IMG/VR virus record: IMGVR_UViG_3300032093_000261
Coordinates: 1-43,338 of that record
Length of the DNA: 43,338 nucleotides
Direction: 5' to 3' (one strand)
Source of the DNA: a virus
Shown: positions 9,746-43,338 of the stretch, piece by piece
Position numbering within the stretch: the stretch's first letter is position 1
Layout of the letters: each line of letters opens with the position of its first letter
The notes under the pieces: generated by a model
Databases searched by the model: none
Told to the model about the DNA's origin: nothing
Seen by the model: the letters and a program-made list of their open reading frames with translations, nothing else
Made by a program: the position numbers and the translations under genes

Positions 9746-9789
9746 TATGGTATCTCCCTATTATTTATCATACTAACAACCCTGTATGA

Positions 9790-9889
9790 GGCCACGTATG
9801 AGCCTATTCAACTACATACGTGGCCCGAACAAGGTGACTCGGTAAACCTACAACCCTTCAAAAGGGTCTGGTTCCTCCGTAGGACAGTC
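9790..9889 (-). other. Intergenic RNA structure: 11-bp hairpin plus nested stem-loops
   Basis: This is the leader of the 167-residue gene. Bases 9790-9800 pair perfectly with 9815-9825 (11 bp, 14-nt loop). Upstream on the minus strand, 9836-9889 can form nested helices: 9836-9839 with 9886-9889, 9847-9851 with 9879-9883, and a tight 6-bp hairpin 9853-9858/9862-9867. Neither hairpin is followed by a U tract, so these are not ordinary terminators. They may be mRNA-stabilising or regulatory structures. Confidence 0.5.
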
Positions 9890-10580
9890 AACTTGAGGAA
9901 TTAGCGTGGAGTGTAAAGCTGTTTACTTTTTCATCAGGGACATAAACGCTGACGGGTACTTTAAATTTCGGGTGTACTGCACGTCCATACGTGTATGTTA
10001 GGTTTTCTTGGCTTTTGAAAAAGTCTGTAACCCATTTGAACACGGTTCTAGGGTGTACTTGTTCCGCCAATAGTTGTTGTATTTCAACGATATACACCAA
10101 ATTCCGTTTCTCGATTTCTCTGAAAAGAAAATTTTCCAGATCGATTTTAATTGATTCAGGATATCGCTTAAACTTAACACCCTCTCTGGTTCCTCCTGAT
10201 TTTCGGTTACGTGTTCCGATAGGAGGACGTAAACCACTTCCAGGTACTTTGAGCCTGTCCGTCGATAAACGCTTGTTCTCGTCGATGCTAGGGGGCTCCT
10301 GGACGATATCCTGACAGAAAGAGGACATTGCGGCCACCCTCTCAGCCCCCGGATTTACTACTGGTATCGTTTTTTCTGAAAAATCCACCCCAAGATAAAC
10401 CGGGAAAGCTTGCCCTGGAGCTACTTTAAGTAAGATAATCCGGTAGGTGTCTTCGGTGCCAGCGTAAGTAGATAAGACGTTACAGTCATTTTCCGCTTGC
10501 TGTCTATCAAAGTAACAAGCCAAAAGCCCTAGACTAGGATCATTGTATGTATTTCGAGCCAGTATATAAACTTCGTTCAT
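9888..10580 (-). CDS. Hypothetical early protein, 230 aa, with HTH-like C-terminus
   Basis: ATG 10580 overlaps the preceding stop (ATGA). Residues 1-75 look like a compact domain (EVYILARNTYNDPSLGLLAC... YRIILLKVAPGQAFPVYLG), a linker rich in Pro, Gly and Arg follows (about 95-140), and the C-terminus from about 143 (IKIDLENFLFREIEKRNLVY... HPRTVFKWVTDFFKS) is helical and resembles a small winged-helix or HTH domain. No family is recognised. It may be a DNA-binding early regulator; this is inference from the C-terminal pattern and basic linker. Confidence 0.7.
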   Translation of the reverse strand: MNEVYILARNTYNDPSLGLLACYFDRQQAENDCNVLSTYAGTEDTYRIILLKVAPGQAFPVYLGVDFSEKTIPVVNPGAERVAAMSSFCQDIVQEPPSIDENKRLSTDRLKVPGSGLRPPIGTRNRKSGGTREGVKFKRYPESIKIDLENFLFREIEKRNLVYIVEIQQLLAEQVHPRTVFKWVTDFFKSQENLTYTYGRAVHPKFKVPVSVYVPDEKVNSFTLHANSSS

Positions 10581-10747
10581 AGCTTTAACCCTTTATCCCT
10601 TGCATGTTTCCAACACTGATATTCTGTTTTAGCTCCCTGCTCTCTGGCTTGTGCCAATGCACAAGCTAATAAACTAGACGCCTCGCTCTCTGTAGGTGCT
10701 TTTATGCGTATAGCTATATTTAAAAACCGGAAGATATACGTTCTCAC
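10577..10747 (-). CDS. Small hypothetical protein, 56 aa, GTG start
   Basis: The start GTG 10747 overlaps the TGA of the upstream gene (GTGA), and its own TGA overlaps the ATG of the 230-residue gene. This double coupling is the main support. The product MRTYIFRFLNIAIRIKAPTE... has a beta-beta-helix look: an alternating hydrophobic strand, then a helix ASSLLACALAQAREQ, then a basic tail. Similar short beta-alpha proteins are frequent in phage early operons but no named family is claimed. Confidence 0.65.
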   Translation of the reverse strand: MRTYIFRFLNIAIRIKAPTESEASSLLACALAQAREQGAKTEYQCWKHARDKGLKL

Positions 10748-11019
10748 GCGCTCATCTCCTCATTGCGCCCTGTACGCTCCACCAAGGGGAGTAAATTAAA
10801 CCACTTGGGCGAATTGCTGAACGTGATTTTAAACGTGTTCTCGGTCAAGCTGGCGGGCTCTCCGTTCGCATATCGCGAACTATAGAACTTTTGCGCCGCC
10901 TCTTTGAGCGTTCTACTTTGGTTGGTGCTACAAACGTACTCATAGTAACCTTTTTGCTTGCTCCACTGATAGAAATCAATCTTTTTGTGTAACTTTCCAT
11001 CCCAAGGTTTAATTTGCAT
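10744..11019 (-). CDS. Hypothetical early protein, 91 aa, downstream of hammerhead 1
   Basis: The product begins MQIKPWDGKLHKKIDFYQWSKQ, with basic and aromatic residues, and is otherwise unrecognised. ATG 11019 is preceded by AAGGA at about 9 nt. The mRNA 5' end predicted from hammerhead 1 cleavage (11048) would leave a 29-nt leader, so this gene would be translated from a ribozyme-processed message with a 5'-hydroxyl end. It is followed by two more genes with overlapping stop/start codons. Confidence 0.7.
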   Translation of the reverse strand: MQIKPWDGKLHKKIDFYQWSKQKGYYEYVCSTNQSRTLKEAAQKFYSSRYANGEPASLTENTFKITFSNSPKWFNLLPLVERTGRNEEMSA

Positions 11020-11042
11020 GGTTGGTATTCCTTATTTTAACT

Positions 11043-11103
11043 GTCCTATACAGGGAGCTAGTTTGCTCCCTGTTTCAGCTATTTAAGCACTCATCAGTAG
11101 GAC
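11043..11103 (-). ncRNA. Hammerhead ribozyme 1 (type I)
   Basis: On the minus strand: stem I GUCCUA (11103-11098) pairs with UAGGAC (11048-11043). The core CUGAUGA is at 11097-11091, GAAA follows a short stem II, and stem III is an 8-bp CAGGGAGC/GCUCCCUG with a 6-nt loop. The cleavage triplet GUA places the cut between 11049 and 11048. Stem II is weak (GCU/AGC plus a wobble and a bulge). The 5' part, including the CUGAUGA core, is also the last codons (CTA CTG ATG AGT GCT TAA) of the 311-residue gene, which may explain the imperfect stem II. All invariant hammerhead core bases are present. Confidence 0.85.
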
Positions 11104-12018
11104 TAATTGCGGGCCTAGTTGCTCGATATCCTCAAAGGGGACTGAGTGACATCCAGCGACAACACGCTTTGTCTCTGTATTTACTTGGGTTATGGTGTAG
11201 CCTAACAGTTTTAAACCCAATAATTTACCACGTTTGAACGCTTCAAAAGCTATTCTTGCCTCTCTGTTAGGTATAATCATACCTTTGGATGTCTCAACAT
11301 CATGATTTTTATTGATGCGTAGGTGTGTAGTGTGGTAGATGTTTAGTTTTTTACGCTTGCCGCGCTTCCATTCTTCCACTTGTTCCGCTTCAGTCTTAAT
11401 TTGACGCTCTTTTTGATTGCTCAAATATGCGCCTGCCTCAAGGTGTAATGTGTCGATAGTGTCACTTGATGGCGTGGCTTCAGTGATTGAGTCCATAGCC
11501 GCATAGAAGCGTTTTTGTGCGCTTATGGGCCATTCCCCTTCAATGTCATCTATTCGGGCAATACAAAAGGTTTTAAACCGTCTAGCGTTGGCCGCTTCTC
11601 TGTCGTATTGTTCCACAAGCCACGCTTTAGAGGATCTAGCGCGTTTAATTTTGCCCGGAAACTTGTTAAGTTCATCCACAAGGTAAGCGCTTTGATTCTC
11701 TACCCAAGTTAAAAAGGCATTAGAAAAGCGTAAATCCCAATTGCTCGGGGCTTCATCTACTTTGATGTCCATCAAGTGGCTAGCTGCCTTGTGCATAGCG
11801 TTTTTATGCTTGCCCTCAGTGGTGACACTATAGGATCTAGCACTATATATGTATTGTGTGCCCGCTGGTGTTGACACTCTTTGAGCTATGACTGTGTTAT
11901 AACTCAAGAGGGCTGAGCCATCAAAGCTAAACGAACGGCTGGAAGTATAACCACATGGCTGTTTAGCATTGGCCCAAGCATGAGCCACTTGATCATTGTT
12001 TTTCAAAACTTTAGCCAT
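11083..12018 (-). CDS. DUF8033-like phage protein, 311 aa
   Basis: Starts MAKVLKNNDQVAHAWANAKQ at ATG 12018, with AGGAG about 11 nt upstream. The longer frame to 12078 is rejected because it runs through hammerhead 2. The pattern of an N-terminal VAHAWANA... SFSFDGSALLSYNTVIA... YSARSYSVTTEGKHKNAM block, a charged helical middle, and a C-terminal GYTITQVNTETKRVVAGCHSVPFEDI block is seen in many phage early proteins of unknown function. I associate it tentatively with DUF8033. It lies between two hammerhead ribozymes, so its transcript would be excised as a separate message; its last codons form part of hammerhead 1. Confidence 0.7.
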   Translation of the reverse strand: MAKVLKNNDQVAHAWANAKQPCGYTSSRSFSFDGSALLSYNTVIAQRVSTPAGTQYIYSARSYSVTTEGKHKNAMHKAASHLMDIKVDEAPSNWDLRFSNAFLTWVENQSAYLVDELNKFPGKIKRARSSKAWLVEQYDREAANARRFKTFCIARIDDIEGEWPISAQKRFYAAMDSITEATPSSDTIDTLHLEAGAYLSNQKERQIKTEAEQVEEWKRGKRKKLNIYHTTHLRINKNHDVETSKGMIIPNREARIAFEAFKRGKLLGLKLLGYTITQVNTETKRVVAGCHSVPFEDIEQLGPQLVLLMSA

Positions 12019-12043
12019 AATCTGATGATCTCCTAAATTAACT

Positions 12044-12097
12044 GTCCTATACAGGGCTTGCGCCCTGTTTCGCGTCATAAACGCTCATCAGTAGGAC
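12044..12097 (-). ncRNA. Hammerhead ribozyme 2 (type I, minimal)
   Basis: A complete 54-nt type I hammerhead. Stem I GUCCUA (12097-12092) pairs with UAGGAC (12049-12044). CUGAUGA is at 12091-12085. Stem II is GCGU/ACGC with loop UUAUG. GAAA is at 12071-12068. Stem III is CAGGGC/GCCCUG closed by a GCAA tetraloop. The GUA triplet predicts cleavage between 12050 and 12049. The stop TAG of the upstream membrane-protein gene (12099-12097) overlaps the first stem I base, and the next gene starts 31 nt after the cut. Every invariant core position matches. Confidence 0.93.
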
Positions 12098-12312
12098 TAG
12101 GGATGTAAAATGCGGTCTAGGATTGCCCAAAACCTGCGTATATATTTTGGCTCCTCAGGTTCTTCGAGGTGTTCCACTAGCTCTAGGTCTAATTCAGGGA
12201 ATAAATAGACTCTGACATTAGACTCAGGGGCGTTTTTGATCATATAGATCATGGTTGCTTGTGATATCAAGAGCAATGCACCAAGGGCAAAGCCTGCGAT
12301 TGTTAGTATCAT
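12097..12312 (-). CDS. Small single-pass membrane protein, 71 aa
   Basis: ATG 12312 overlaps the stop of the 56-residue gene (ATGA); the frame extends to 12330 but that start is less likely. Residues 2-27 form one hydrophobic helix (ILTIAGFALGALLLISQATMIYMI), followed by an acidic cytoplasmic-type tail (LDLELVEHLEEPEEP) and a basic aromatic end (RRFWAILDRILHP). It is not near the lysis genes and is transcribed early, so an envelope-modifying role is more likely than a holin role. The stop codon abuts hammerhead 2. Confidence 0.65.
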   Translation of the reverse strand: MILTIAGFALGALLLISQATMIYMIKNAPESNVRVYLFPELDLELVEHLEEPEEPKYIRRFWAILDRILHP

Positions 12313-12479
12313 GCGGTCACTACATCCCAACCTTGGGGGATTAGGTTCGGCGCGGTGCTATCGTGTACCGCTTGCCTAACGGTTTCATAAAACTCATTAA
12401 CTAAAGTTTGGTGACCGGCCTTATTGATAGTCTCTAAAGCGTTCAATAGTGTTGCAAGTTCATACTGTTTGCGGTTCAT
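12309..12479 (-). CDS. Small hypothetical protein, 56 aa, downstream of hammerhead 3
   Basis: Begins MNRKQYELATLLNALETINKAGHQ; ATG 12479 has AGAAGGA 8 nt upstream. The hammerhead 3 cut would leave a 28-nt leader. The stop TGA overlaps the ATG of the membrane-protein gene, so the two are translated in tandem. The sequence is helical with an aromatic VNEFYETVRQAV segment. No family is recognised. Support comes from the ribosome-binding site, coupling and amphipathic composition. Confidence 0.65.
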   Translation of the reverse strand: MNRKQYELATLLNALETINKAGHQTLVNEFYETVRQAVHDSTAPNLIPQGWDVVTA

Positions 12480-12501
12480 GATTGAAATCCTTCTAATTAA
12501 T

Positions 12502-12627
12502 GTCCTAAACAGGCTCAGCCCGATAGCTGGCTTGATTGAGCATTACCCGGCAAGGGCTAGCTGACACAAGAGCATCATCGGGTAGGATCTGAGCCTGTTT
12601 CGCGTATTAAACGCTCATCAGTAGGAC
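12502..12627 (-). ncRNA. Hammerhead ribozyme 3 (type I, extended stem III)
   Basis: Stem I GUCCUA (12627-12622) pairs with UAGGAC (12507-12502). CUGAUGA is at 12621-12615, stem II GCGU/ACGC with loop UUAAU, GAAA at 12601-12598. Stem III is a 9-bp CAGGCUCAG/CUGAGCCUG (12597-12589 with 12518-12510) enclosing a 70-nt insert that can fold further (CCCGAU/AUCGGG, or an alternative UACCCG/CGGGUA). The triplet is GUU, so the cut falls between 12508 and 12507. The large peripheral insert is unusual beside the two compact copies and could act as a regulatory module. Confidence 0.9.
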
Positions 12628-12783
12628 TCATATATTTAATTATCAAAGTACAGAGCTATTAGCGAGGGGTTGGGAGCGTAGCTCTCGTCTCTCGCTTTCG
12701 ATGTAATTAGTAAATCAGATTATTCAGGCGATGTCAAACACTAATTTATGATGATGGCTTAATCTGTTTACAATGCTTAACAA
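12628..12783. other. Leader segment between the first early gene and hammerhead 3
   Basis: No credible gene is seen here. On the minus strand it contains a sigma70-type promoter (12709-12737). Downstream, a GCGAG/CUCGC stem may form just after the expected transcription start, followed by an AT-rich run up to hammerhead 3. Confidence 0.45.
12709..12737 (-). promoter_or_regulatory. Sigma70-type early promoter upstream of hammerhead 3
   Basis: On the minus strand, a perfect -35 TTGACA (12737-12732) is followed after 17 bp by a -10 TTTACT (12714-12709, 4 of 6). Transcription would start near 12702, giving a leader that contains hammerhead 3. This would let the ribozyme-punctuated genes be expressed by host RNA polymerase. 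Confidence 0.55.
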
Positions 12784-13203: not shown

Positions 13204-13395
13204 CAATATCCATTAGCGGTTTTTGAATCTGTTCAACCTAGTGCGGGCCAATGAGTGAACGGCTTTCCACCTCATAAAACAATACGCTTTTTCATTTTTT
13301 AAGCCGAAAAAGTGCAAAAAGCTACTTTGCTTGTGTCGAGGCTGACGCCTCCCCACTTTGGTTAATCACCTTTATTAACGCTTTGCATCTTTTAT

Positions 13396-13431
13396 CGCTT
13401 TTAACGCTTTTAACGCTTTTAACGCTTGTTA
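13396..13431. repeat. 9-bp tandem repeat (CGCTTTTAA), iteron-like
   Basis: Three perfect CGCTTTTAA units and a fourth degenerate one (CGCTTGTTA) run head to tail. A further related CGCTTTGCA lies just upstream. Short tandem AT-containing units next to protein-binding dyads are common at replication origins, where they act as initiator sites or DNA-unwinding elements. Confidence 0.75.
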
Positions 13432-13460
13432 CGTTGATAGCGCTAGCCTACGCTCGACCA

Positions 13461-13569: not shown

Positions 13570-13663
13570 CGACCCCCTATGCGTCCCGAGCGCATCGTGG
13601 CCGCGCGCCCGAGAAACCCCTTGACACCCTCCAAACCCCAAAATTTTCCAATACACCGATTAC

Positions 13664-13708
13664 GCTACTAAAGCTGGTATAGCTACTAAAGCTGATAACG
13701 CTATTAAC
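13664..13708. repeat. 18-bp tandem repeat (GCTACTAAAGCTG core)
   Basis: GCTACTAAAGCTG occurs at 13664 and 13682, and a partial GCTATTAAC lies at 13700, keeping an exact 18-bp period. It is adjacent to the C-rich stretch. It could be an initiator or activator binding array for late transcription or replication. Confidence 0.6.
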
Positions 13709-41305: not shown

Positions 41306-43338
41306 TATTTTTTGTACCTCTTTCCTCTCCAGCCTTCCGCTTTAATAGGCAAGCCGTCTGCCCAGGCTGGTGAATCGGCTAGTATCGCTTCGAACTCTTC
41401 CACTGAACGAGTCCCTTCAGGAACTTCCGCAGCAGCTTCATCATGTACGTGTAGCACGACGGGATACCCGCTATTCTCGCAACGCAATAGAGCATCAGCC
41501 AGAATGTCCCGAGCCACAGACTGCACAATATTTTCACAAAGTTTTCCTCCGTAGGTGAACTCTCGGGTGTACTGGAACTTGCTGTTCTCAGTCATGAAGC
41601 TGAGAGACAGCTTCTTCTCGCCCCAAGGCGTCTCTTTTTCCGACACCTTTGGCCTATGGTAACAGATGCAACGCCCGGAGGGGAGCTTGCATAGCAGGAA
41701 GTCACCCGCTACACCGAACGTCACCTTGCCGACTTGCACCTTCTCACCCGTCAGTACTGCTTTGATAGCACCAGCTTCCAGCGCATACCACAAGCTAACT
41801 ACTTTCGGGTTAGCTTCACGCCAGCGTTGCTTGATGATGTCAGCGGCAATGGCGCTCTCTCGGTCTAGGGGATCAAGTTCTCCGTTCTGTTTACACCGCC
41901 CCATGTATCCCCCGTAAGCTCGGGTAGCTTTTTCTCGCTCTTGGGTTGAAGCGGTAGGCCACAATAGCTCGAATGCAGGGCGGAGATCCACACTGTAAGC
42001 TCGGGCCATTGTGCCGAATGCCCCGATGCCACCCTGATAACCCAGAGCCAGGACAGATACTTTGCCAACACTACGTTCATACTTATCCTTCTTTGTGATT
42101 GTGCGGCCATAGATACCGCAGGCTTCGTAACAATATACGTCCTCATCGCGCCGGAAGATGTCGAGAGTTGACTGCTGATCAGCGATCCAGGCCAGTACTC
42201 TGGCTTCAATCGAAGCGTAGTCAGCCACAATCAGATCTTTGCCCCGGCCAGCAATCAGCATACCTCGCAGAGACGAGCTATAGGCTTCCATCGGATCAGG
42301 ATACACTTCCTTGAACCAGTCATAGTCACTACCCATAGCTACCCGAACAGCGATATCGCTATCGGTAGTACCTCTAGGCAAGTTATGTACCTGTACACCA
42401 CGTCCACCCCAACGCCCAGTGTGTGCCGCACCATAAAGGAAGCACTCTCTGAGCCGCTGATCCCGCATGTCGGAGCGCTCAATCATCCCCTCGTACTTGG
42501 CCGTGGATATTTTAGAGAGCTGACGCCTGATCTCAAGGGATCGTCGGACAGCGCCGGGAGGGAGAACCTTGATAGCGGCGTCCACTGTTGGTGCTTGTAG
42601 GTTCTCTAGCAACAGGCCGTTGTCCGCTAGCCACTGGCGATACTTTACAACTTGACTAGGACTGTCTACTGCACCGTTCGTTACTCTGCGGAACTCTGCG
42701 CCCAGCTCAGTGGTTGTCTGTTCGATGAGTTCAAGCATCTTACGGACGGCGGCTATATCAAGCTGGATGCCACGGAAATTGATTTCCTGGTCTAGGAACC
42801 ACAATTCTTGTTCGAATGCGTTCAGGTCGCGCAGAGCATCGTCTACGAGCTTTTCCGTCTGAACGTCCTGGATGTTGTACGCATAGGTTCTTTTGAGGTC
42901 TGCCGGATCTTCGTTCCAACGGTTTGGGTTGTTCTTGGTAGGCTTACGTGGCCGTGAACACTTGAGCATAGTCTTGTTGCCCTCCTTATCCTTTTGGATA
43001 GGAAGGTTAAGAGCAGTACCAACGCCTTCCAATGAGCGCGGTAAACCATAGGACGCCGCCTTTGCAGCGGTACAACGCCAGCGGCGGATGGGGATTGGTG
43101 GCATTCCGTATTTCGGAACCATGATGTTAGCCCAGATGCACTGCTCGAAGAAGGCATTGTGGGCTACGAAAATTACTGTGGGATCAGCCGCTAGGCGGTA
43201 CAATTCTTCCAGTTCAATGCCGCCCATTGCTCTGTAGTACTGAAAGGTTCCCAGTTCCCAGGATACGATGGGCAAGTTGTTCACTTGATAGGCCAAGCAA
43301 ATGGGTTCTGTAGAAGGGTGGGTCGAGTAGACCCACCA
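41305..43338 (-). CDS. DNA polymerase family A (gene continues at 1-187)
   Basis: The main part of the 697-residue replicative polymerase. In full numbering, the exonuclease domain has D7/E9 (on the other end of the window), FVAHNAFFEQ near 78-87 (Exo II) and YNIQD near 174-178 (Exo III). The polymerase has motif A DLIVADYASIEARV near 388-401, motif B RSVGKVSVLALGYQGG near 442-457, and motif C HVHDEAAAE near 650-658. There is no 5'-3' exonuclease domain, as in T7-type replicative enzymes. The gene runs off the window end and is completed across the 126-bp overlap. Its stop is TAATG-coupled to the next gene. Confidence 0.92.
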   Translation of the reverse strand, partial: WWVYSTHPSTEPICLAYQVNNLPIVSWELGTFQYYRAMGGIELEELYRLAADPTVIFVAHNAFFEQCIWANIMVPKYGMPPIPIRRWRCTAAKAASYGLPRSLEGVGTALNLPIQKDKEGNKTMLKCSRPRKPTKNNPNRWNEDPADLKRTYAYNIQDVQTEKLVDDALRDLNAFEQELWFLDQEINFRGIQLDIAAVRKMLELIEQTTTELGAEFRRVTNGAVDSPSQVVKYRQWLADNGLLLENLQAPTVDAAIKVLPPGAVRRSLEIRRQLSKISTAKYEGMIERSDMRDQRLRECFLYGAAHTGRWGGRGVQVHNLPRGTTDSDIAVRVAMGSDYDWFKEVYPDPMEAYSSSLRGMLIAGRGKDLIVADYASIEARVLAWIADQQSTLDIFRRDEDVYCYEACGIYGRTITKKDKYERSVGKVSVLALGYQGGIGAFGTMARAYSVDLRPAFELLWPTASTQEREKATRAYGGYMGRCKQNGELDPLDRESAIAADIIKQRWREANPKVVSLWYALEAGAIKAVLTGEKVQVGKVTFGVAGDFLLCKLPSGRCICYHRPKVSEKETPWGEKKLSLSFMTENSKFQYTREFTYGGKLCENIVQSVARDILADALLRCENSGYPVVLHVHDEAAAEVPEGTRSVEEFEAILADSPAWADGLPIKAEGWRGKRYKK
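43212..43337. repeat. Terminal redundancy, right copy (same as 1-126)
   Basis: Identical to 1-126. The final window base 43338 (A) differs from its counterpart 127 (C); that base falls in polymerase codon 21 (GGG to TGG, Gly to Trp). A single end-base mismatch is most simply an assembly-edge artefact beside a C run. Confidence 0.88.

Follow-up and report, generated by a model that had tools for sequence, protein, structure and literature searches.

The window, by which we mean the whole 43,338-nt stretch of viral DNA analysed here, is a tailed-phage genome as judged by its gene content (PHROGs). It begins and ends with an exact 127-nt repeat, and a polymerase gene spans the join of the two ends, a join that is also crossed by a near-identical contig (3300008266_000327; 29.6 kb, 99.99-100% identical to the window). 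Because of the exact repeat and the gene that runs across the join, we take the genome to be a complete circle of ~43.2 kb or circularly permuted. Genes for terminase, portal or adaptor, major head and tail proteins run rightward from ~13.8 kb. The leftward genes extend from ~13.0 kb down through the end overlap and encode small unknown proteins together with replication proteins, including a VapE-type primase, an SNF2-type helicase, a DUF2800 exonuclease, an Enc34-type ssDNA-binding protein, a PolA-type polymerase and a Holliday junction resolvase. Between these two divergent operons lie iteron-like short repeats, with a 9-bp unit (CTTTTAACG) in 4.3 copies and an 18-bp unit in 2.8 copies, which are a possible replication origin or regulator site. 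No integrase was detected among the proteins scanned, and one 82-aa ORF gave a marginal excisionase match. Three hammerhead ribozymes lie within the first 2 kb of the leftward replication operon, in its first intercistronic gaps (Table 1).

Table 1. Hammerhead ribozymes, flanking genes and other features of the window.
Feature	Position	Strand	Description
Terminal repeat	1-127 and 43212-43338		Exact, 127 nt
Intergenic stretch	9760-9895	-	Strongly structured; between two early genes
91-aa ORF	10744-11019	-	Start codon 29 nt beyond cut C; first of the next run of overlapping genes
Hammerhead C, type I	11043-11103	-	Stem II irregular; predicted cut between 11049 and 11048
311-aa ORF, PHROG 7247	11083-12018	-	Function unknown; start codon 31 nt beyond cut B, 3' end within hammerhead C
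Hammerhead B, type I	12044-12097	-	Fully canonical; predicted cut between 12050 and 12049
71-aa ORF	12097-12312	-	Lies between hammerheads A and B; probable membrane protein (hydrophobic N-terminus)
56-aa ORF	12309-12479	-	Starts 28 nt after cut A; stop overlaps next start (ATGA)
Hammerhead A, type I	12502-12627	-	Sequence; strict descriptor match; R1 39.8 bits, E = 9e-8
Copy A, stem I	12627-12622/12507-12502	-
Copy A, core CUGAUGA	12621-12615	-
Copy A, stem II	12614-12602	-
Copy A, GAAA	12601-12598	-
Copy A, extended stem III	12513-12597	-	Perfect stem of ~11 bp with a roughly 80-nt internally structured insert (fold)
Copy A, predicted cut	between 12508 (U17) and 12507	-
Copy A, candidate pseudoknot	12497-12610	-	Loop UUAAU (12610-12606) with AUUAA (12501-12497)
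Iteron-like repeats	13389-13444 and 13658-13707		Between the divergent operons

Analysis of the sequence confirmed three type I hammerheads on the minus strand, here called A, B and C. The initial annotation had read CUGAUGA, GAAA, a UH cleavage site and a stem I of GUCCUA/UAGGAC in three minus-strand copies at these coordinates, and all of these elements were found, the cleavage site being GUH; the new 5' ends that it had placed at 12507, 12049 and 11048 are likewise correct as predicted positions. The invariant core (C3-A9 CUGANGA, G12-A14, A15.1-U16.1 and H17) is present in each copy and stem I is identical in all three, with the cleavage site reading GUU in A and GUA in B and C. By folding and by descriptor, stems II and III are closed by loops and stem I is open. 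Copies A and B have a canonical 10.1-11.1 pair and a regular stem II, whereas that of copy C (GUGCUUAAAUAGCU) has only a G-U wobble adjoining the core, followed by a bulge and then by GCU/AGC, and fails the descriptor's demand for two contiguous stem II pairs. Copy C is the least certain of the three. Perreault et al. rejected candidates with mispairs adjoining the core unless activity had been measured, and reported that a weak stem II, even one with a U-U mismatch, can be tolerated (PMC3088659).

A strict type I descriptor, run on the window and on 50 first-order Markov randomisations, matched A and B in the former and gave no hit in the latter, which excludes chance. A looser pattern matched B and C, and none of 100 shuffles reached as many matches; the other two matches of this pattern in the window lack hammerhead stems. 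We built a covariance model (R1) from relatives together with copies B and C, leaving copy A out. The model recovered the left-out copy A at 39.8 bits (E = 9e-8), with B and C, both part of the model, scoring 52.0 and 50.9 bits; the next-best site in the genome reached 10.2 bits, and nothing else was credible. Moreover, the folding energies of A, B and C gave z = -4.4 to -4.6 relative to 200 dinucleotide shuffles each. At gathering thresholds, Rfam matched none of the three copies in the window, and when E-values were allowed only Hammerhead_3 appeared, on copy B, at 21 bits against a cutoff of 48.5, so that standard annotation misses these copies. Another stem I (TCGGA/TCCGA) was looked for and none was found. 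The structured intergenic stretch listed in Table 1 (-52.3 kcal/mol, z = -5.3) matched no credible Rfam family, its sole matches being to microRNA hairpins and below threshold. At 9870-9890, a UCCUA-like sequence with a strong intergenic fold was considered as a degenerate hammerhead and ruled out, as it contains neither CUGANGA nor GAAA.

A pattern scan over 2.9 million viral contigs returned 37 stretches of the same design, that is, 36 records besides the window, and R1 recovered all of these relatives, plus second or third copies in many of them. Extra copies were sought in 36 records, made up of the window and 35 others, the near-identical contig 3300008266_000327 being left out; in 12 of the 36 there are two or three, spaced 0.2-1.3 kb from one another and without exception on the same strand. 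For the 2.6-kb region and the 311-aa protein, the phage collection held no near relatives and the viral contigs only the near-identical 29.6-kb contig, whose sequence is too close to that of the window to be informative in comparisons. The same pattern, run over 84,980 prokaryote species genomes, gave a single match, which lies inside an archaeal coding gene without the stems and is dismissed as chance. In the collections searched, this stem I subtype looks essentially phage-borne. A recurring variant among the relatives has a single additional unpaired U after CUGAUGA, before stem II begins to pair (L006, L008, L011, L013, L017, L019, L027, L029-L032, L035 and L039) and is a possible core-junction variant.

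The ribozymes stand close to the ends of genes. In copy B, the first base of stem I is also the final base of the preceding stop codon. Copy C overlaps the end of the gene before it: its 5' half codes for the six C-terminal residues (VLLMSA) and the stop codon, so that ribosomes finishing the 311-aa ORF must cross the ribozyme core. Across loci, the upstream stop mostly lies within 0-5 nt of the ribozyme, and the distance from cut to start codon is 18-48 nt in 45 of 48 cases, mostly 22-36 nt, with a median of 31 nt in the filtered set; the leaders in the window measure 28 (A), 31 (B) and 29 nt (C). The genes downstream of the ribozymes in the relatives are diverse and mostly small unknowns, several of them encoding ArdC-like antirestriction proteins. 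A hammerhead directly precedes such a protein in L006, L008, L027, L029 and L039, and those of L006 and L008 have an ArdcN plus a zincin-like domain (Pfam). Perreault et al. described ardA adjoining hammerheads, with a triple arrangement around ardA in Agrobacterium tumefaciens (PMC3088659), and there may be a loose link between hammerheads and antirestriction genes, ArdC-like here and ardA in that study.

Covariation was assessed over 42 distinct copies by comparing the observed pairing with that of shuffled partners. Pairs 2-5 of stem I, 3-5 of stem III and 2-4 of stem II were paired far above shuffled partners (p ~0.0002) and occurred as several pair types, the covariation of stem II being biased because its register was picked by best pairing. 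Furthermore, the family has a pseudoknot between the stem II loop and the bases just 3' of stem I, whose pairing class covaries (score 341, where permutations averaged 256 and reached at most 293, p 0.0005, for 36 distinct loop/flank pairs), as in UGGU/ACCA, UUGC/GCAA, UGGC/GCCA and UGGAU/AUCCA. The candidate pseudoknots of the window, UUAAU/AUUAA in A, UUA/UAA in B and UUAA/UUAA in C, consist of 5, 3 and 4 A-U pairs, respectively, and are compatible with this pattern, if weak singly. Such pairing of loop II with the 3' flank may supply the tertiary contact between stems I and II; pseudoknots of this sort have been described in all three hammerhead types (Perreault et al., PMC3088659).

Stem I and the inner portion of stem III are common to copies A, B and C, which by this sequence evidence probably arose by duplication within this phage, and recently. 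A scan for the long stem III insert of copy A found it only in 3300008266_000327; it is absent from B, C and unrelated contigs. When the copies were folded in their native context with ViennaRNA, which ignores tertiary contacts and co-transcriptional folding, the probability of stem I was 0.57-0.75 for B, 0.02-0.4 for A with its flanks and 0.01-0.16 for C with its upstream flank. In these folds the flanks of A and C largely displace stem I, which suggests a competition that could make cutting slower or dependent on translation.

The reading that we favour, with a probability of roughly 80%, is that A, B and C would cleave the message of the leftward operon between its genes and so uncouple neighbouring genes from one another. 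Each hammerhead would fold as the message is made and cut 3' of its own stem III, leaving each downstream piece with a 5'-OH and a leader of ~30 nt, while each upstream piece would end in a 2',3'-cyclic phosphate preceded by the hairpin of stem III. Genes that neighbour one another on a single transcript would be uncoupled in this way, each piece decaying and being translated at its own rate. Ends with a 5'-OH are poor substrates for 5'-monophosphate-dependent RNase E, and 3' exonucleases are slowed where a hairpin stands at the 3' end. The initial annotation had likewise proposed a set that cuts one early message. An intercistronic set on one strand is well supported, whereas the single message spanning A, B and C is assumed from the gene spacing, with no promoters or terminators standing above shuffled background.

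The ribozymes might alternatively be selfish or neutral passengers, their intercistronic cutting being harmless and having no regulatory role, as the diversity of the downstream genes and the evident duplication within the genome could be taken to imply. We consider this unlikely, however, since the stems and the pseudoknot are maintained by compensatory changes where sites are orthologous (such as those preceding the same 71-aa gene in L003, L015 and L023), the orientation is always sense and the range of leader lengths is narrow.

Cleavage might also act as a translation switch, in which the UCCUA of the uncut 5' strand, the complement of AGGA, masks the downstream Shine-Dalgarno (SD) sequence until the cut frees it. 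The best fold of uncut copy A pairs GUCCUACUGAU with AUUAGAAGGAU, the latter containing the SD, and across 37 loci the predicted SD accessibility averages 0.55 before the cut and 0.65 once it is made (Wilcoxon p 0.002), a larger rise than in control genes truncated likewise (0.49 to 0.52). In the window, however, the predicted accessibility falls from 0.41 to 0.37 for A and from 0.50 to 0.33 for B and rises only slightly, from 0.63 to 0.74, for C, and many relatives have other stem I sequences without UCCU. With a weak trend in the family that folding does not reproduce in copies A and B, unmasking of the ribosome-binding site was set aside, and a translation switch is rather improbable.

Gene-sized circular RNAs, formed when the UAGGAC at the 5' end of a fragment pairs with GUCCUA in the following ribozyme of that fragment and is ligated, would draw on the identity of GUCCUA/UAGGAC in A, B and C and on between-cut fragments (458 and 1001 nt) that hold whole genes, but are very unlikely given that stem I differs among copies in 10 of 12 multi-copy records, so that exchange is not generally preserved, that duplication accounts for the common stem I, and that Perreault et al. 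sought circular or spliced products and detected none (PMC3088659). We give just as little credence to the wider proposal that there are either gene-length circular mRNAs made through the matched stem I or a copy A insert that would serve as a ligand sensor gating the first cut.

Intercistronic cleavage of this kind has precedents. The initial annotation described phage hammerheads as usually reported singly and knew of no described phage operon with serial copies, and in both respects it was mistaken: prophage genes with clustered hammerheads on their flanks were reported in 2011, a triple array being cleaved in E. coli and the same message processing being proposed (Perreault et al., PMC3088659), and a 2017 review restates the clustered phage hammerheads, treating the role of bacterial and phage hammerheads as an open question (PMC6155905). 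Both the arrangement and its interpretation are therefore already published and the window is a further example, with three hammerheads, all on the minus strand, flanking phage genes (PHROGs). In common with the 2011 clusters, it has serial hammerheads flanking single genes or small blocks of phage transcripts, a presumed cutting into gene-length mRNAs and stabilisation by pseudoknots. Unlike them, its hammerheads are all of type I with an identical stem I and one large stem III insert, and they are located at the start of a replication operon, in a genome where the proteins scanned included no detected integrase. What distinguishes the window is that all three copies have the same stem I and that copy A has a long insert in stem III. 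With the type I hammerhead of Schistosoma mansoni, the copies share the core, the three stems, the GUH site and the open stem I, but their stem I is short (5-6 bp) and without an internal loop, and their tertiary contact is apparently made by the loop II pseudoknot. Twister, pistol and hatchet are self-cleaving RNAs that have also been reported near phage genes; their folds differ from those of the hammerheads described here, and none had an Rfam match in the window.

Together, the window and ~36 relatives present a clean and repeated anatomy, in which a stop codon is followed by the ribozyme, a leader of ~30 nt and a start codon, and which makes the idea of message processing directly testable by 5'-OH sequencing. 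Since Rfam gathering thresholds miss such copies, it also appears that phage hammerheads are under-annotated.
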